A DNA stretch of 64,000 nt from Phorcus lineatus. Its lineage: Eukaryota > Mollusca > Gastropoda > Trochida > Trochidae. Position numbers and translations under genes: made by a program. Positions 22,574-57,000 of this stretch are shown in pieces. The notes below the pieces were generated by a model. The model was not told the DNA's origin, ran no database searches, and saw only the letters and a list, made by a program, of their open reading frames with translations. How positions within the stretch are numbered: the stretch's first letter is position 1; each line of letters opens with the position of its first letter. Location: NCBI GenBank assembly GCA_921293015.1, contig OV121096.1, forward strand, positions 22,889,729-22,953,728. Direction: 5' to 3'.

Positions 22574-25500
22574 GGTGGGCGCACCTGTATCAGTGCACCC
22601 GTTCAATATACCCGGGTAGATAGCGCTATCCCACTATACAATGTGGGTGACATGAGTTGGGTATGAGGTGAACGTATGATTACCTCAGTAAGTTTTAATT
22701 GCCCACAGATTCCGCTTTGCGTTAAATCCGTTATTCATTTGAACGCTACCCGTTTTCCTACAGCGCTTGCCCAGGCATGAATGATCGATCGGTTTCCTGG
22801 AACTCGTAAGTTTCCGAGAAATAAAACAAAGCATGTTGCAAACTCTCACGACCGATTTGCTTCCCTTTTGTAAACTCGTTTCTTTGTGGAACATGACTAT
22901 GACTCTGTAAATTTACATAAACAAGGATTATTTATTATAATCTATGTTGTTGAGCAAACTGTTTTGCACTGATATTATAATTATATTGTTGATTTATCTG
23001 CAACATAGTATTGTTGAATTAAAACATTTATAAGATACAACATTGTAAGCAGTTGATTAAAAAAAAGGAGGGTGATCACAAAGTTTGAACCCTCTTGAAG
23101 GGAATACACAACATGAATGGGTTACCTTTCTAGCATGACCTTCAGAGGTGTTTAAGTCATCAGAAACTGTCATTGATGTATTAGAGATTACCATGTAAGT
23201 TAGGACAGCAAAAGTCATCGAAGCACTAGTAAAATATAAGTTTAGGTCTTGTGCTTTTGAAAGAAATCATAAATCTACTTAAATATTATTATTGTAATTG
23301 ATGAATGTATATTTATATTGTTTACATAAGGATCAACATCGATGATGTCGCATTTTCTTTCATTTTATATCACATGTTGTATGTGAGCGGTGTTAAAATA
23401 AGCCCTTCGGCTTGTTCACCAATCCCAATTCAATTTTATTGAATAAAATATGTTTAAATCAAATCATAAAAAAACAATTAACCAACAGTTTTCTGTTTAA
23501 ACCAGGTTTACAACTTAAGCAGAAGATGTATTAACTAGTCTGAAGTAATCTTGTCAAAGCTTTCATGGCAGTAAGGAATTGGTAAACAATTTTGAAAGCA
23601 TGGGACAGACAACAAACTTGGTGCTAAGATATTTTCAAATAAACTGCCTAATAAATAATTGGTACATCCCTGGTTTGGAAAACATTTGTAATTTCCAAAT
23701 GATCTTGACATCTTGAGAGAAAACCTTTTATTACAAAGTAATATTAAGGGGTTCAGAACAGAGGCGCGCTGCTGGAAGATGACTCACAACCATGAAAACC
23801 ATCATGTTGGGACAGATGATACCATCTATACAATGACAAACTTCAGTTATAATGATATGTTCAGATTTTTACCTGAGTTAATCAAGGTGCCGTTCATAAA
23901 CGTATGCTCAGGATGCTTAAGTTTAACAAATACTATGTTGAGCTCCGAGGTTCATGTGATATTTTGTATATTATATTTATGAACTGATATTATGTCAATT
24001 CAGTAATTTTCATTCAATTTAGTCATTGTTTTGTTAATAATATTCAATTCAAAAAAGTTTAAACTAGATGATTTAGATTTTTTAAAAATCTTTAAAATGT
24101 TTCAGTACAGTGTCTTATGTTCCAAAAAACAAATTAGACTCTCGATTTGTGAACCATAGATAGACTTTATTCAAAAGCAACATAATCTACTTGTAAGCAA
24201 AACAGAGTATATTTTAAAAAAAGAAAAAAGTCAAAGCAATAAAATACTAGATAATTCACATGCAATGGACAGGAAAGCAATACAAAAGCATACGCTACTT
24301 ACAATATGAAGTGGCATCTTTGTTATGATTGGATAATGTGTTGATTCAGACTTCTGGCCCGGTTGGGGATTGAAGGTAAGCAAAGGTTTAACAGTAAATA
24401 TGTTTATACATAAAAATATCATAGAGGACTACTGAAGAGTAAACTGAACTAATCACTCATATCAGATCAAGATAAAGTAGAACTACTCACTCATATCAGA
24501 TCAAGATCAAGTAGAACTACTCTCTCATATCAGATCAAGATCAAATAGAATTACTCACTCATATCAGATCATGATCAAGTAGAACCACTCACTCATATCA
24601 GATCAAGATCAAATAGAATTACTCATTCATATCAGATCAAGATCAAGTAGAACTACTCACTCATATCAGATCAAGATCAAGTAGAACTACTCACTCATAT
24701 CAGATCAAGATCAAGTAGAACTACTCACTCATATCAGATCAAGATCAAATAGAATTACTCACTCATATCAGATCATGATCAAGTAGAACTACTCACTCAT
24801 ATCAGATCAAGATCAAGTAGAATTACTCATTCATATCAGATCAAGATCAAGTAGAACTACTCACCATATCAGATCAAGATCAAGTAGAACCACTCACTCT
24901 TATCAGATCAAGATCAAGTAAAACGACTTACTCATATCAGATCAAGATCAACTAGAACTACTCACTCATATCAGATCAAGATCAAGTAGAACTACTCACT
25001 CATATCAGATCAAGATCAAGTAGAACTACTCACTCCTATCAGATCAAGATCAAGTAGAACTACTCACTCATATCAGATCAAGATCAAGTAGAACTACTCA
25101 CTCATATCAGATCAAGATCAAGTAGAACTACTCACTCATATCAGATCAAGATCAAGTAGAACTACTCACTCATATCAGATCAAGATCAAGTAACACGACT
25201 CACTCATATCAGATCAAGATCAAGTAGAACTACTCACTCCTATCAGATCAAGATCAAGTAGAACTACTCACTCATATCAGATCAAGATCAAGTAGAACTA
25301 CTCTCTCATATCAGATCAAGATCAAGTAGAACTACTCACTCATATCAGATCAAGATCAAGTAGAACTACTCACTCATATCAGATCAAGATCAAGTAGAAC
25401 TACTCACTCATATCAGATCAAGATCAAGTAGAACTACTCTCTCATATCAGATCAAGATCAAGTAGACCGACTTTATATACCGAAATTATGAATATTTTAT

Positions 25501-26906: not shown

Positions 26907-27044
26907 TTATTTGGTTGGTATGTTGTTGCTCTTCTGTGTTTGCATGTCCAGGAGACTGGTCATCAGTCTGTTCATCTTCTCCAGTCTCTCGTCCATCCTC
27001 TCCTCAATTTGTCTCCGTCTGTTCGCTATCTCTGGAATACTATC
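26907..27044 (-). CDS. TRPA1: Copy 2 exon 33, coiled coil and stop codon
   Basis: 46 codons including TAA at 26907-26909, acceptor [18 protein letters not shown] leads into a heptad-type helix ([20 protein letters not shown]), consistent with the C-terminal coiled coil that assembles TRPA1 tetramers. Confidence 0.82.
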   Translation of the reverse strand, partial: DSIPEIANRRRQIEERMDERLEKMNRLMTSLLDMQTQKSNNIPTK

Positions 27045-30000
27045 CTGCAACGAGATGATAAAGACATATTCTCAATCTATATGGAAGAATCCTGCAACTT
27101 TATCTGACTGTTGTTTGCTTGCTATCTCCGGGATCACATCCTGCAACAATAAGAAAAACTTTCTCAATATCTATGGAAGAATCCTTCAACTTTATCAGAC
27201 TGCTGTCTGCTTGCTATCTCTAGAATAATATCCTGCAACAAGAAACATTTTCTCACTGTATGGAAGAATCCTGCAACTTTTAGCAGAGACGTTGTAATAT
27301 CCTTTAACAAATACGATACACGTTTTCAGTATCCTCAGAGATGTTGATTATCTCCCTAACATACTCCTGTAACAAATCACATTCATAATTACCTAATTTA
27401 TCACTGTTAACAAATGATTCATTCAAATTTGTTAATAATTGAATATGTGGTTAATGTCCTTATAACAGTAAGGTAATACACGTTTGTATTACTCACCAGA
27501 ACAGCATTTTCATTAGGTACCATGGTATCGTTCCACCACCAGATTGGCCAGCCTAATAGATAATTCCACAGTATTTTCAGACGACCAACATTACCTCCAT
27601 TCCCTGTCTGATCCTGGTCTCGTTTTATGTAAAGCTTTCTTCGAATACTTACAAACAAAACCTTCTCGACATCAAGGACAAGATCAATCTGCAGAAGAGG
27701 AAATAAATTTTTCTGATTTAATTTCTGTAGCAACAATATTTTTCTGTCCAAAGTGACTCTTTGTGGAGTAACAATGGTCTTTTTTCAAGAAAAAAAACTG
27801 ACAAATTGCCTCATGTAGGCTTGACACCCAAAAACAATCTTCAAACTTACATGCATCGCAGCCCTTTTAAACGCTGCTATTCGAAGTATGCCCTTGATAT
27901 CGTCAACTGCCAAACCAACCTGAAAGAGGCTTCATTTGAAAATACTTGCAATACCTGGCAATAACATTCCTCGTACTTGATGAATGAAAAGTGAGTTACA
28001 TTTAAAAATGTCAGTCTCCATATGCTAAAAATACGATCTGTCAGAAAGAGTTCACGAAGATACTTGACACATTACTGAAAGAATCAAGAGGTAGCAGGGA
28101 ATGTTTTATTTTTCAAGGGTCAACAGGCATTCTTTCGAGAGGTTTAGGGGGACACATTAAAGGAATCACCAAGGGGTTCAGAAGAACACATAACAGATTA
28201 ACCAAAAGGTTCATAAAGACACATAACAGACTTACCAAGAGGTTCAAAAGAACACATAACCGATTAAGCAAAAGGTTCATAAGAAACATAACAGACTCAC
28301 CATGAGGTTCACAGGGACACATAGCAGACCTTTATCAACCTCTTGGTAAGTCCGAGGTTGATAAAGACACAAAAATATCTTCCCGTTAGGTTCACAAGGA
28401 CAAATAACAGAATTACCAAAAGGTTCAAGGGGACACATAACAAAATTACCAAAAGGTTCAAGGGGACACATAACATACTAACAAAGAAGTTCATAGAGGC
28501 ACATATCAAATTTACCAAGAGGGTCATAAGGAAATATAATAGAATTACCAAGAGTTTTATAAGGACACAAAACATGTCAAAAATAGGTTTATAAAGACAC
28601 TTATAAAGCTCCAGTGACGTCACTTAATTGTTCTTGCGGGACACTATTGTAAGCAATTTCTCTTAAACCTGATTCAGTAATTTCTCTCAAACCTGATTCA
28701 ATCACGCTACCTCAGGCAGGTATCTGTCCCATCATAATGGCAATCATCTTGATAATGCCCTCTGCCCCGGGCAATTATCTTAATAATGCCCTCTGTCTCG
28801 GGCGATTATCTAAAATATTTTCGATTGATATAACTGACTTTTTTTCTTAAAGTAATAGTGTAGGCTTACTATTACTTTTGAAAAATAGCTCAACATTATT
28901 TTCCCATCTGCCCATTTTTTTGACGATATGCCGTCTAGAAGCATCATAGTCCACACTGCAAATGCTACACCCGACGTTCTGACTACTGAAGTTGGATTAA
29001 ACATGACCCGTGGGCATAATTGAAAAGTATGTCCTCCTCCCTCGGGAAATGCCTCCGGCCAGTGGGCATTTCCCGCAGTAGTCGGGCATACTTTTAAATA
29101 ATGCCCGCGGGTCATGTTTTATCCTTCACATAGCAACCTTACCAAGAGGTTCATAAGGACGATGCAGGCCAATGTGATGAAGAAGGAGAAGATGACAGAG
29201 GTTGCTGCAGGATATAGCAAATTGGTCGTGTCGATCACCGTGATGTCATCTACACCTCCGTTGAATAGAGCATTGTAATCTATTTCTCCAAGGAACATCA
29301 CTGCTGTTTTCAATATTGAATTTGGGACATCTCTGAAAGCAACCTTCAATAAAAAAAAACCACAATGAGTTAGTTTGATTATTATATAGTTTTAATCTTA
29401 TATATGTGCGAATGTTAAAAAGAAGTGATGTGGTAATTACGCCATGGTTGGACATCTATTAAACATGTTATAAATACAGAACTCTCATAGTCTTGCGATC
29501 CTTCTTTCAAAATAAGGGAAGTTAGTCTATCTTATTAGAGTATTACATCTTTATTTGCTCAAAAAGGTCATTTACTACAAACAAGGGGATTACTTATGAT
29601 AAAAAGATAAAGGTTACATAATAGATAATACACGATTTAGGAATAAAAATGTTGCGGTTCTTTAAAGTCCATAGCTTTATATCATTTCATCTTGTGAATA
29701 TTATACATGCGATAGCGTAAGTACATCATTTTTTTTCTTTTCACTGCCTTGTATTTAAAAAAATCAAAGGGTAACTTGACTAGGATAAAAGTAAATATTA
29801 AACAACAAATACAATTTCTGCAATTCTAGAAGTTGATGAGGTATTACGATATGGACAATTTTGATGGATAAGGAACTTCTGTATTCTGTGGAAGCGACTT
29901 TTCGACATAGGTTCTAATGTCGTTGTTCAGCAAGTAATCTGTTCAGGGAAAGAATATATAAACTAGTTGTTTACACCGGAGAATAGTTTATACAATAACT

Positions 30001-39000: not shown

Positions 39001-42000
39001 ATGAACTCGTAGATGTTTTTCGGCTTTTCAGTTTCATCCATCACTCCCTTCGTTACGTCTGCGAAACACTTGGTCATCACTTCCATGGCAACGTCTTCGT
39101 TTCCAAGAAAAAAAGTTTTAAGGTAGCAATAGGGCGGCAATATACATTACAAATCAGCTGGATATTCAGGATTTCAATCCCTATAAAATCAGGTTAGCAA
39201 TGAGCTTATGTTATGGGTGTTTTGGATAACTTCTTCTGGACCTTAATGGGTATCCTATCAGCCTGTAAGAAAATGCTAAATAACCGAGTGACATGTTGTA
39301 TTTAACAGGTAATCTAAATATTGTTTCACATGTCTTAATCTTCGACATGTTTTATTAAAAACAATTCAGGTATACATACAGAATGCATTGTCACATTAAA
39401 GGACACAAAAATTCGATATACATGCAGAATAATAGATACATACATGCATACGTTTTTCATACAAGAATTTTGTAAGTGTCTATTCCTTTCTAAAAATGTC
39501 TAAAATGCACAACAACTTCAGCAAATATGCCTTCTAGCTTTGGTTAATGTTGATAACTTTGGTGCAATTTTAGTATTGTGTTATCTGTCGTTTCATGAAT
39601 GTGATATTTGGGGGAATCTTGAACATATTTTATTGTAGGCCTTATGGCCATTTATAGGGAATAACATGTACCAAAAATATGGCTAGTATAACGGATCAAC
39701 GACTAAACAGTTGACAAGTTTAACGGATGAATGTAGTAAACATACGACAACTTTAATAGTTCAACGATTAAACATTCGACAAGTTTAACAGATCAATGAC
39801 TTAATATACGACAAGTTTAACAGATCAATGTACTAAACATACGACAAGTTTAACAGATGAATGACTTGATATACGACAAGTTTAACAGATCAATGTACTA
39901 AACATACGACAAGTTTAACAGATCAATGACTTAATATACAACAAGTTTAACAGATCAATGACTTAATATACGACAAGTTTAACAGATCAATGTACTAAAC
40001 ATATAACAAGTTTAATGAATTAATGTTCAAAGCATACGACAAGTCTAACAGATCAATGTAAAAGGCATTTGGCAAGTTAAATAACTAAATGTACTAAATA
40101 TACATGTACGACAAGTTTAATTGATGAGTCTACTAAACATTCAATAAATTTAATAGGCCAGTACCTGGCATGTCCCTGATCATCCTCCGCATGGGAGTGT
40201 CTATTTTGCCGTCACTGGTCTTGACGCTGTTCCTCATGGCATGAAGCCAGTAATCAGACTTGATGATGTACTGCGCTATCTCTCTACAATCATAGCAAGC
40301 ATCTTCCAGGTCAGTTCACTGATTAAGAACTCTTAAAGAGCCAGAAACATGTTTATATGAAAGATTTATTTTACACAAAATTCCCCAAAGAACATTAATG
40401 TGTGCAAAATGTATCATTTTAGAGGGTTAAAATCCTAACTATCAGAACTGAAGTCTGGCGTAGGGGAGATAATCAAGTATCAAGCAAAATGTCAGTGGCA
40501 GCCGCTATTGTGTGGTTATAACTTAACCGATCATGGTGCATTCGTTTTAAAACCACTTCTTTTGATACAAAAAATATTTTCTTTACATTACTCACAATTA
40601 CTTTCGTTTCTTGAAATTTCTTTGGTCATTTAAAAACGTGCCACTACCCCTTTAGGAATGAAATTTTTGTTCAGAATCAATATGAACAAGCACCGCTTGT
40701 CTAAAAAAAAATTCCAATAGTTCAGCCTACAGATCCGGGAATGAATGCCTACTAGTTGTTTTTAAAAAAATTGGCATTTAAAAATTTGATAATGATATTA
40801 GTATAAATCTATACATAAAACTCACTTGTGCCGATTTTTGATTGCTATGTCCAAACAGTTAAGACCATCCCCATCCTTGAATTTGACATCTTCAACAGTT
40901 TTCAGAAGCAGTTTGACAACTTTGAGGTGACCTTCAGCACAGGCCAGATTGAGCGAGGATACCTATTTTTATCAACATTTTCAAAATTAATTTCCACAAT
41001 GAAATTATTGAATTTAAGCCATACATATACTAAATGTTTTTCTTTTTCAGGCCCTTTATGTAAATTAAACTTGAAATATGAATTAACACAACTACGATAT
41101 TCAAGCCTGATATAATGTCCACACGACAAAAGTGTGTGACAAAGTTCATGAACAATGAAAAAGTTCACGTTTTCTAAATCAAAGATCAATAGGCGCACAA
41201 GACATATGTATATCATAATCGTAACAAGGGGGTGCTTTCACAACATTGTGGAGAGGATAGCCCCTGGTACATTATGTTCGAATCCTGTTCGAGTCAATAT
41301 ACACAAACTTTTATTCCTCGAACACGGTTGACCTTCCAAGATGTAAATCATTCAAAATCTGGATTAAACCATACAAAACCAGATATCCTGTGTATTGGTG
41401 ATACACGGAGGCACATTTCTTGCAATAGTCTCCCCAAATATATCGATGTAGATAGAGGAATATTCCCTTTATACTCTAAGGTAATAAAATATCGGGCCCT
41501 CGTCTGCTAAACATTCAAACATTTGTCAAAAGATGGTCCTGTACATTGCTCAGGAGACAGCTGAGATGAGAAAGAGCTTTTCTAGCTTTAAGTTGCGCGT
41601 GAAAATCGTCTTTCGGCCGTCCTCATTAAATAACCGAAAGATTTATTTGTTTAAGTGAGTTGGAGTAAAAAGTTAAATGATTTGAGAACATGTCTGCATA
41701 TTTATTGTAGCATTCGGTCAAGAAAGCGGGTGGGGGCGAATGGAGTGTCTGACCTTTCCATATACTATTACCTTTAAAAAAAAATTTGTATTTGTTTATT
41801 TGTTTTTAATGATCTGAGGGCCTGCGGTTAGGAGAACTTTCGACGAAGCTGCTGGATGAACGGGATAGAGCCCTCATTACTTATTATGCTGATCTTTTTT
41901 TATGTCCGTGAGCTGAGTGATGCACCCGAGACCACTAACCACGATCATGTGATCAATTCATCAGTTTATCCAACTCACGCCGTCCTTGTCTAGCCACGAC

Positions 42001-51000: not shown

Positions 51001-54000
51001 TACAGGTACTGTTTTAGTCATGTTTCCATGGAAACCGCAAAAAATAAAAATCATTTGTTGGTCTCACCCTCAAAAGGCACATCTAGGGATCATAGTTGAT
51101 AAGTGTATGAAGTTTGGTGAAGCTAGCATGTATAGTTTAGGAAATATGCTGCGGACAAAGGACTTGGTCATACAGGTACTGTTTTAGTAATGTTTCCATG
51201 GAAACCTCAAAAAATAAAAATCATTTGTTGGTCTAACCCTCAAAAGGCACATCTAGGGATCATGGTTGATAAGTGCATGAAGTTTGGTGAAGCTAGCATG
51301 TATAGTTTAGGAGATATGCTCCGGACAAAGGACTTGGTCATAGAGGTACTGTTTTAGTCATGTTTCCATGGAAACCGCAAAAAATAAAAATCATTTGTTG
51401 GTCTCACCCTCAAAAGGCACATCTAGGGATCATGGTTGATAAGTGTATGAAGTTTGGTGAAGCTAGCATGTATAGTTTAGAAGATATGCTCCGGACAAAG
51501 GACTTGGTCATAGAGGTACTGTTTTAGTCATGTTTCCATGGAAACCGCAAAAAATAAAAATCATTTGTTGGTCTAACCCTCAAAAGGCACATCTAGGGAT
51601 CATAGTTGATAAGTGTATGAAGTTTGGTGAAGCTAGCATGTATAGTTTAGGAAATATGCTCCGGACAAAGTTTTGTGACGAACGGACAGACGGACAGACG
51701 GACGGACAGAATGAACGCTATATACCCCCGCTTACGCTGTAAGGCGGGGGTATAAAAATATCAATGAAGACAAGCTCACAGACCTGTACAGTTTGGTAAT
51801 TGTCACCTTCATTTCAAACAACTAACATAATGAAGAGTTGAAACACAGTCTCAATCTGGCAATCGACCCTTATACGAAATATATTTAGCATAAAGACGAG
51901 CTCAAAGACCTCCAAAATCTAAGAATTACCCCTTATACTTCTTAACTTGAGAAAAAGGAAAAGCTCAAAGCCTTTTACAATCAGGCAATCGACCCTTATA
52001 CTTATCAACTTAATCAAAAAGAAAAGCGGTTTACAATCTAAGAATCGGCCCCTACAAACCCTAAGTTCGATATAATGTGTAGCTTAGAGCCCTTCACATT
52101 CTTGGAATGATTCCTTATACTTTACACCTTTAGCATAAAGACGAGATAAAAAGCCCTTCACAATCAGGCATTCGCCCCATAAACTTATTAATTGGAACAA
52201 AAATACGAGCCCTTCACAAACTAAGAATCGATCCCTACAATCCCTAAGTTTGACATAATATCAAGCTGAGAGCCCATTCACAATCTTGTAACTGGCCCTT
52301 GTAAATACTAACATGAACAAAAAGAAGAGAAAAGAGCCCTTCAAAATCTAGTATTCAACCCGTATACCTGCTTAACTGAACATAACGACAAGCACAAAAC
52401 CCTACACAACCTGAGAATAGACCCCTATATTCCCTTGGATTGAGCCCTTCATTTGGAATATATCTCTCACTTGCTAAATTAAATGAAGCCTGTCACAATC
52501 TGAGAATCGACCCCTTCAATCTATCATTTAGACATAAGAGGATCTAAGATCCCTACACAATTTATGATTGACTCATTAGCTTGTGAGCGAACAATCTGCA
52601 GATTGTGATCAATCCTAGATGGGACGGAACATAAGCACTGATAATTCCCTCAACTATTCAATCTCAGTCTAAGTGCAGGTAGAATTTTTAAAGGACAAGA
52701 TTTTCGACAATTTAACAAATCGATTAAACTATATTTAGGAAATGAAACGTTGATGGCAATAATTGATAGACAACATATACGACTATATGTATTTTTAAGT
52801 TACAGTAATACCCTCTCTAAGGTTTGTAGCTTACTATAAGATTTAGCTTGTCATACATACATTACATTAATATCTTAAAACATCAGCCAATATCTTATCA
52901 ATACGTCTCAAAGACTTCATTTGTTTCTGAATACTACCTCAAGCTTTTTCCTAATCTTTTCCTTGTTGTCCATCTCAATTTCCACAAAAAATTTTCCCAT
53001 CGTAGAATTTGTTGGTTTTATGATTTTCTGCAAATAAAAAAACATAAAGATCCGTGAATTATTACAAGCAATGACTAAAAAAGCAATCGACAAGTTATTA
53101 TGATGATGTGAAACTATGCAAGCCACAGTCAATTGCATGATATCACAATGCTTCTACGTGATAAAGTAATGACAAATGAATGCCATGACAAAATACGATG
53201 TAAACAAAATACAGAAAACATCAATGCTTTTGAAGTCTAATTGTTATCTTAGATGAAGATTTACAATCATTATACTATGTTCAGAAGTAAACAACATGGC
53301 TCACGAGTTAGACTTAATCCTTACAAACAGGAAAATGTGGTTCTGTCCTACATTACCTCAAGTGCTATCATATTGTTGTTCTCTGCCGCCCCGTGCAATG
53401 GAATCCTGCCCCTGGAGTTCTTCTTGTTGACGTCAGCACCTGCCTTCATCAGCAGATCCACCATCTCTGCATGTCCATACTGCGCCGCTATGTGCAGCGG
53501 AGTGTTCCCGTCTCGGTCAGTCATGTTCACCTTCATGCTGTGGGTGAGAGATTTCATTGATACCTTACAGTGATTACAGTTGTAGAATTTTGTTATTGAC
53601 ATGTTGCGGTGCCTACTGTGATGGAAAGATGTCATTGACATGCTGCAATGTTTGCTGTGATAGAGATGACATGGCCATGTTGCAGTGCTTTCTGTGATAG
53701 AAAGATGTCATTAATATGTTGCAGTGCTTCCTGTAATAGAAAGATGTCGTTGACATCTTGAGTGCTTGCTGTGATGGAAAGATGTCATTGACATGTTGCA
53801 GTGCTTGCTGTGGTTTAAAGATGTCACTGACATGTTGCAGTGCCTGCTGTGGTAGAGAGATGTCATTGATATGTTGCAGTGCTTGTAGAGAGAGGTAGAT
53901 GTCATTGCCATGTTGAGTGCTTGCTGTGTTAGAAAGATGTCATTGACATGTTGAGTGCTTGCTGTGATGGATATATGCCATTGACATGTTACAGTGCTTG

Positions 54001-57000
54001 CTGTGGTATAGAGAGATGTCATTGACATGTTGAGTGCTTGCTGTGATGGAAAGATGTCAATGACGTGTTGCAGTGCTTGCTGTGATAGAAAGCTGTCATT
54101 GACATGTTGAGTGCTTGCTGTGATGGAAAGATGTCATTGACGTGTTGCAGTGCTTGCTGTGATAGAAAGATGTCATTGACATGTTGAGTGCTTGCTGTGA
54201 TGGAAAGATGTCATTGACATGTTGAGTGCTTGCTGTGGTGGATATATGTCACTGACATGTTGCAGTGCCTGCTGTGGTAGAGAGATGTCATTGATATGTT
54301 GCAGTGCTTGTAGAGAGAGGTAGATGTCATTGCCATGTTGAGTGCTTGCTGTGATGGAAAGATGTCATTGACATGTTGCGGTGCTTTCTGTGGTAGAGAG
54401 ATGTCATAAACATATTGCAGAACTTGAAGAGAGAGATAGATGTCATCGCCATGTTGCAGTGCTTGCTGTGGTTTAAAGATGTCAATTGACATTTTACAGT
54501 GGCTGTTGTGGTAAAGAGATGTCATTGACATGTTGCAGTGCTTTCTGTGGTAGAGAGTTGTCATAAACATATTGCAGAACTTGAAGAGAGAGATAGATGT
54601 CATTGCCATGTTGAGTGCTTGCTGTGATGGAAAGATGCCATTGACATGTTGAGTGCTTGCTGTGATAGAAAGATGTCATTGACATGTTGAGTGCTTACTG
54701 TGGTCGAGGGATGTCAATGACATGTTACAGTGCCTGCTGTGATGGAAAGATGTCATTGACATGTTGCAGTGCTTGCTGTGATGGCTATATGTCATTGACA
54801 TGTTGAGTGCTTGCTGTGATAGAAAGATGTCATTGACATGTTGAATGCTTGCTGTGGTCGAAGGATGTCAATGACATGCTGCAGTGCTTGCTGTGATAGA
54901 AAGATGTCATTGACATGTTGAGTGCTTGCTGTGATAGAAAGATGTCATTGACATGTTGAATGCTTGCTGTGGTCGAAGGATGTCATTGACATGTTGAGTG
55001 CTTGCTGTGATGGAAAGATGTCATTGACATGTTGAGTGCTTGCTGTGATGGATATATGTCACTGACATGTTGCAGTGCCTGCTGTGGTAGAGAGATGTCA
55101 TTGATATGTTGCAGTGCTTGTAGAGAGAGGTAGATGTCATTGCCATGTTGAGTGCTTGCTGTGATGGAAAGATGTCATTGACATGTTGCGGTGCTTTCTG
55201 TGGTAGAGAGATGTCATAAACATATTGCAGAACTTGAAGAGAGAGATAGATGTCATCGCCATGTTGCAGTGCTTGCTGTGGTTTAAAGATGTCAATTGAC
55301 ATTTTACAGTGGCTGTTGTGGTAGAGAGATGTCATTGACATGTTGCAGTGCTTTCTGTGGTAGAGAGTTGTCATAAACATATTGCAGAACTTGAAGAGAG
55401 AGATAGATGTCATTGCCATGTTGAGTGCTTGCTGTGATGGAAAGATGCCATTGACATGTTGAGTGCTTGCTGTGATAGAAAGATGTCATCGACATGTTGA
55501 GTGCTTACTGTGGTCGAGGGATGTCAATGACATGTTACAGTGCCTGCTGTGATGGAAAGATGTCATTGACATGTTGCAGTGCTTGCTGTGATGGCTATAT
55601 GTCATTGACATGTTGAGTGCTTGCTGTGATAGAAAGATGTCATTGACATGTTGAATGCTTGCTGTGGTCGAAGGATGTCAATGACATGCTGCAGTGCTTG
55701 CTGTGATAGAAAGATGTCATTGACATGTTGAGTGCTTGCTGTGATAGAAAGATGTCATTGACATGTTGAATGCTTGCTGTGGTCGAAGGATGTCATGGAC
55801 GTGTTACAGTGCTTACTGTGATGGAAAGATGTCATTGACATGTTGCAGTGCTTTCTGTGATGGAAAGATGTCATTGACATGTTGAGTGCTTTCTGTGATA
55901 GAAAGATGTCATTGACATGTTGAATGCTTGCTGTGGTCGAAGGATGTCATGGACATGTTACAGTGCTTGCTGTGATGGAAAGATGTCATTGGCATCTTGA
56001 GTGCTTGCTGTGATGGAAAGATGTCATTGACATGTTGAGTGCTTGCTGTGATAGAAAGATGTCATTGACATGTTGAATGCTTGCTGTGGTCGAAGGATGT
56101 CATTGACATGTTGAGTGCTTGCTGTGATGGAAAGATGTCATTGACATGTTGAATGCTTGCTGTGGTCGAAGGATGTCATGGACATGTTACAGTGCTTGCT
56201 GTGATGGAATGATGTCATTGACATGTTGAGTGCTTGCTGTGATGGAAAGATGTCATTGACATGTTGAGTGCTTGCTGTGATAGAAAGATGTCATTGACAT
56301 GTTGAGTTCTTACCATGGTCGAAGGATGTCAATGACATGTTACAGTGCTTGCTGTTGCAGTGATATCATTGACATGTTGAAGTGCTTTCTGTGATAGAGA
56401 TATCATTGACATGTTGCAGTGCTTTCTGTGATAGAGATGCCATTGACATGTTGCAATGCTTACTGTGGTAGAAAGATGTCATTGACATGTTGCAGTGCCT
56501 GATGTGCAGTGTCCTTGGGTTATATTTTTAACCACACAACTACACTGCTTGCTGCATTGGGTGATGATGCCATTTTAATAGGTTTGTGCACGTAGCAGTA
56601 CACGCTATTGAAATAGTAGCGATGATTTCAGTCGAAAATGAACAAAACTACATGTAGGACTTTCTCTACAGTGGTGGATATATTTTCTAAACAATGTGAA
56701 AAAGTTAAACGTGGGGCCTAATTTTCGTCGAGGAGTATTTTTGCGATTTCCTTCCGGTTGTGTTGTGCGGAGATTTACATGTTGTAGTGCTTGTTGTGAC
56801 ATTGTGAAAGAATGCCGATAAACCTACTTATGTTTGAGGAGTATTTCAGCGATTTCCACCCGGTTGTGTTGTGCGGCCATGTGGAGTGGTGTTGAGTGGG
56901 CCATGCTGTCAGAACGTGAAGTGTACCTTCCATGATGCTTCAACAGTTCCTCCACGATCTCCTTGTTACCAGAAATGACTGCCAGATGACGTGGGGACAT

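Follow-up and report, generated by a model that had tools for sequence, protein, structure and literature searches.

A donor border repeated in its own intron

The question raised by this locus is how near-copies of an exon-intron border come to stand in tandem within the intron that this border opens, and whether the gene makes any use of them. The stretch of DNA analysed here (the window, 64 kb of C37 in an assembly of 958 Mb) contains on its minus strand a TRPA-type channel gene with ankyrin exons upstream. Matches to Ion_trans and to ankyrin were obtained for this gene, which is TRPA1-like in combining a TRPA-type pore/S6 exon with ankyrin exons, and five joined translated exon stretches match solved TRPA1 chains (best match 7ykr, 3.3e-28); the 67 residues of the S6 exon alone had no match at 0.001 in the search of solved structures. 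The S6/pore exon (29143-29343, minus strand; exon 27 of a first-pass annotation of the window) comprises 67 codons, ends in ...IVLMNLL and has the donor TTG|GTAAGG, its identification resting on its translation, six homologues in the cluster, the TRPA1 match and the presence of the exon in a more distant paralog as well. Its authentic splice partner is the next exon on the same strand (27847-27921; VGLAVDDIK...), which starts in phase 0 with VGLAVDD at 27921. As a separate observation, a molluscan haemocyanin beta-sandwich family gave 16 matches on C12, in two groups of eight, and none in 14 control genomes. These matches mark the assembly as molluscan, so that a lancelet was rejected as its source, and two genes with eight such units each would suggest a gastropod.

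The intron between these two exons holds a minisatellite that the first-pass annotation described as a 34-bp repeat made from the donor border of the S6 exon. The derivation from the border stands but the period is 33, as reported by Tandem Repeats Finder (TRF) at 28168-28329 and at 28388-28574. A scan with a 33-base consensus places the units from 28154 to 28565 on the minus strand and recognises 11 decoy units at 20 or more matches out of 33, a procedure that favours well-kept units. The authentic border (29127-29159, minus strand), which would be the ancestral or terminal unit of the array, agrees with the consensus at 30 of the 33 positions (3 mismatches). Sequence with at most 3 mismatches to the consensus occurs at two places in the 64-kb window, namely this border and one unit of the array, and at no place in 100 dinucleotide shuffles. 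When 18,375 windows of 40 nt were compared across 26700-64000 with the array excluded, the border was the best match with a score of 26, the next place reaching 14. The likeness spans the exon-intron boundary, with 17 exon and 16 intron bases, and because it covers all of these the reading that only the GTAAG core is shared, which the first-pass annotation had named as the outcome that would tell against it, is refuted.

In the window copy, 561 bases separate the last recognised unit from the border unit. Between border and array lies a foldback, MITE-like element (28994-29124) that matches itself in inverted orientation over 131 bp at 79% and for which a DNA fold of -46.1 kcal/mol (z -10.8) is predicted in single-stranded form. 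No second copy of this element was found in the 260-kb region or in a 26-kb outgroup stretch, copy 6 of the gene lying outside the search; the element was also seen to stop two bases short of the border unit. The remainder of the gap (28566-28993) is probably another insertion, since some of it is similar to three further loci of the cluster, over lengths of 47-199 bp and at 62-81%.

The array in six clustered paralogs

Six close homologues of the S6 exon, the window's included, were found in the cluster, with 91-100% of the 67 residues in common, and two distant ones at 29.71 Mb on C37 (55%) and on C9 (38%). The 33-bp array is present in all six close copies and absent from both distant TRPA paralogs in the DNA examined. 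Copies 1-6 have 12, 36, 12 (window), 10, 6 and 25 units, a range of 6 to 36 between paralogs of one assembly, counted at 20 or more of 33 matches with the authentic unit included; the figures for copies 1 and 6 each include one unit that stands apart from the array. The first-pass annotation had asked whether the array also occurs beyond the left edge of the window, in what it called copy 1; it does, with 36 units at C37:22878481-22879669 that are contiguous with the exon.

The six copies differ in how the array meets the exon. In copies 2, 4 and 6 (36, 10 and 25 units) it leaves the exon head to tail without a gap, so that the working donor is its terminal unit; single one-base shifts occur inside the runs of copies 2 and 6. 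In copies 1, 3 (window) and 5 the array has lost contact with the border, from which degenerate or inserted sequence now separates it, the first intron units of copy 1 being degenerate and a length of two units in copy 5 no longer recognisable. The exon side of the border matches the array in all five copies tested, copy 6 being outside the test, with a score of 16, which 4 in 20,000 background places attained. That the array was built from the donor border of the exon is strongly supported, and better supported than from the window alone because array and border are continuous in three of the six paralogs.

Comparison of the copies also points to turnover of the units. Between copies 2 and 4, a single one of the 201 exon bases differs and the aligned flanking blocks are 91-94% identical, yet the two have 36 and 10 units, respectively. 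For 66% of units the closest relative is another unit of their own copy, against 22% expected. The donor variant shared by copies 1, 3 and 5, GTAAGGTTGC, recurs within the array of copy 6 in units that differ from theirs at 1-3 positions; this points to an exchange between the working donor and units of the array.

Decoy donors and the origin of the array

The intron units could be functional decoys that bind U1 and tune the splicing of the S6 exon, for example by giving truncated, NMD-prone transcripts or by guarding the intron from early polyadenylation. This we consider unlikely, although several features of the units speak for it. A strict GT is found in 91 of the 101 units of the six copies, authentic units included (9/12, 36/36, 10/12, 10/10, 4/6 and 22/25 in copies 1-6, the third being the window's), and the mean conservation of the donor 9-mer lies above that of the rest of the unit in five of the six copies, all but the window's, with the GT likewise kept better than the mean of the rest in five, a pattern that weak selection could explain. 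Within the three decayed arrays, however, the donor 9-mer ranks just ninth in conservation among the 33 circular 9-mers, the T of its GT scoring 0.97 and the G 0.75. The strength of the decoys is a further point against a function. The first-pass annotation held that several units have a better donor than the authentic TTG|GTAAGG; two of the 11 decoys on the gene strand equal or beat it (TTG|GTAAGT and ATG|GTGAGT), so "several" was generous, and its idea of decoy donors is only partly supported, the GT being kept in most units but few of them matching the authentic site in strength. Another TTG|GTAAGT is found in an inverted, palindromic unit within the array (28325-28361, plus strand, with 13-bp arms), recognised by its sequence and by a reverse-strand match at 28361, where it lies opposite to the gene strand, that is, on the wrong one. 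Over copies 1-6, decoys at least as strong as the donor of their own copy number 2 of 11, 1 of 35, 2 of 11 (window), 3 of 9, 1 of 5 and 7 of 24; these counts were the same whether strength was taken from a weight table of frequencies or from U1 pairing energy.

When the authentic donor is read through, an in-frame stop follows within 5-13 codons in all six copies, and the use of a decoy would therefore be predicted to truncate the channel after S6, which would fit the truncated form proposed above. Extension of the coding sequence by the array was considered and rejected, since these stops occur in all six copies although 33 is a multiple of three; 92, 38 and 32, the unit lengths of arrays described below, are not. 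The human gene IFI6 (6-16) offers a parallel in favour of function, in that a minisatellite at its donor border has units reported to serve as splice donors and to make isoforms (PMC4526556). The two cases are alike in that a minisatellite at a donor border supplies several donor sites, and unlike in that the units of IFI6 are reported in use, whereas the mollusc decoys are predicted from sequence and their use would meet stops. The mirages of lancelets, by contrast, are reported not to disturb splicing (PMC3087553, PMC3902484). We see no clear sign of selection for the decoys in the conservation of the units, and they are most likely neutral passengers.

Taken with the state of the array in the six paralogs, these data make it very probable that the array arose by tandem amplification of the donor border of the S6 exon, was tolerated and was then turned over, with the decoys most likely carried along as passengers. 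The starting event would have been a head-to-tail duplication in place, presumably through slippage or unequal exchange, of a 33-bp segment with 17 exon and 16 intron bases in an ancestor of the six clustered genes. The extra copies would have become intron and would have been tolerated because splicing at the exon-proximal copy should still yield the same mRNA. Unequal exchange and conversion would then have altered the copy number and mixed the units, apparently including the working donor, as the shared variants suggest. Border and array would later have been driven apart in the window copy by the foldback element together with other sequence. The acceptor of the last exon would have undergone the same kind of amplification, giving a 92-bp array, and two other splice sites of the gene may have done so too. 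We infer the mechanism of duplication from the sequence of a single assembly.

Two other origins have to be weighed against amplification of the border. Were the array a dispersed satellite or a transposon-derived repeat that inserted near the exon, its likeness to the border being secondary, then the foldback element and the repeat-like sequence that part the window copy's border from its array would find a ready place. A genome search with the 33-bp array, however, found at least 11 places, all of them in the TRPA cluster, and one with 1000 bases of the 38-bp array of the same gene found at least 11, again all in the cluster (C37:22.86-23.10 Mb); a dispersed satellite was rejected on this confinement. 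The continuity of array and exon in half of the copies also speaks against such an insertion, as does the exon part of the unit, which encodes S6 residues that are kept in array-free paralogs, and we hold this origin to be extremely improbable. The array might instead be a by-product of the birth of the intron, if a proto-splice site was duplicated in tandem, a model put forward for mirages in the lancelet globins (PMC3087553). Tandem duplication of an exon border is common to that model and to the array described here, but the mollusc intron predates its array. The more distant, array-free paralog on C37 (L035) shares these codons, its donor, CTTATGAACTTGTTG|GTGAGT, stands at the corresponding position, and its intron agrees in codon and phase. 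By this sequence comparison the S6 exon and the intron that follows it are older than the array. This contradicts intron birth for the S6 intron and leaves it very improbable as an origin of the array.

Arrays at other splice junctions and the lancelet mirages

The gene has a second array, formed from the acceptor border of its coiled-coil exon, the last one. It has a 92-bp unit (27044-27290, minus strand), in each case with a polypyrimidine-TTGTTGCAG stretch and about 40 exon bases, and the acceptor border of the last exon itself (26907-27043, minus strand; identified from sequence, its stop codon read by eye) is the terminal unit. The best match outside the array lies at 27048-27009, with a score of 24.5 against 15.5, and exon sequence is included in all four copies tested, copy 6 lying outside the DNA covered; copy 5 gave no match to a 42-base probe of the array. 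Downstream of the last exon we also observed a 34-bp array (24446-25466, about 30 copies, 94% match), a counterpart of which lies near the neighbouring copy at C37:22872883-22873395, and elsewhere inside the TRPA cluster a 9-kb array with a 48-bp unit (C37:23048687-23057780).

Two further arrays of the gene approach splice sites. One, of 32-33 bp (39685-40158, minus strand), runs toward the donor CCAG|GTACTG of the exon ending at 40159 and has no exon part: the intron side matches in four of five copies and the exon side in none of the five, the exception on the intron side being the window copy, in which the stretch at the 40158 border itself no longer matches the 32-bp unit. The other, of 38 bp and about 76 units by TRF (53541-56812, minus strand, or 53547-56506 in a narrower delimitation), occupies almost all of its intron and extends to the acceptor (53540) of an ankyrin exon. 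Its exon part is weak, and in the four copies tested the intron side is strong in two while the exon side matches weakly. Where they could be placed from TRF spans, in four and five copies, the 38-bp and 32-bp arrays lie 0-123 bp from the border. Because they have no clear exon part, both may simply be intron arrays of the ordinary kind that have come to lie at a border by chance. An array matching the 38-bp one was also seen in reverse orientation at C37:22975436-22975998, where the S6-exon search found no copy. Strictly exon-spanning are two arrays, the 33-bp and the 92-bp, and three more, an array of the C9 paralog among them, just reach or abut a splice site.

These arrays raise the broader proposal that splice junctions are the preferred birthplace of minisatellites throughout the genome of this mollusc, duplication of a border in place being shielded as splicing keeps the outermost copy, and growing arrays exchanging with, and being able to replace, the working site; mirages would then be a general process of animals, and some arrays would make isoforms. 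We regard this proposal as doubtful. In its favour, the single minisatellite in about 12.8 kb of the C9 TRPA paralog starts at a donor. Its 32-bp unit (L036, TRF 1989-2091, 3.2 copies) was seen to begin exactly at donor +1 and looks like a tiny intron, because each unit runs GT...TTCAG. The proposal is opposed by a more distant TRPA gene (26 kb, L037-L039) that has no array of period greater than 26, by a stretch of another Ion_trans gene (L040, 10 kb) that has arrays of 32-35 bp as well as one of 16 bp, which stops 27 bases short of an acceptor located by eye and shows no exon likeness by eye, and by the window gene itself, in which three of seven arrays (36, 170 and 183 bp) lie away from borders. 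A placement test found two of the seven arrays within 10 bp of a border (p = 0.0024, 20,000 random placements), a weak result because the list of 17 exons is incomplete and partly set by protein matches, the array span was trimmed to the border and the cut-off was chosen afterwards.

The nearest known counterparts are the mirages of amphioxus, minisatellite-like tandem duplications across an exon-intron boundary that were described in Adh3 and in the globins BflGb6 and BflGb9 (PMC3087553), PGBD5 and troponin C being added to the lancelet genes by a further paper (PMC3902484). They are reported at donors or acceptors, change in copy number and in many repeats keep the AG or GT (PMC3087553, PMC3902484), with units of 10-72 bp in Adh3 and about 150-160 bp in the globins (PMC3087553). 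The mollusc array resembles them in that its unit spans the boundary, its repeats lie in the intron by the border (contiguous in three of six copies) and most of them, not all, keep GT. It differs in its host, a mollusc, in the presence of one array in six paralogs, and in the involvement of two, possibly four, splice sites of one gene, with exon-spanning units of 33 and 92 bp; the mollusc arrays are known at the level of the genome. The 33-bp array is a mirage minisatellite, in a mollusc. Our literature search, which covered titles and the openings of abstracts and few subscription papers, found no mollusc case of such arrays, and the phrase "mirage minisatellite" had no match in it; within the literature passages covered, mirages have so far been reported from lancelets only. 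With six paralogs, in three of which exon and array are still joined, the TRPA cluster presents a series of states of one array. It provides a natural test of how a single donor is chosen by the spliceosome where up to 36 near-copies are present, and it opens to test the idea that minisatellites start preferentially at splice junctions.
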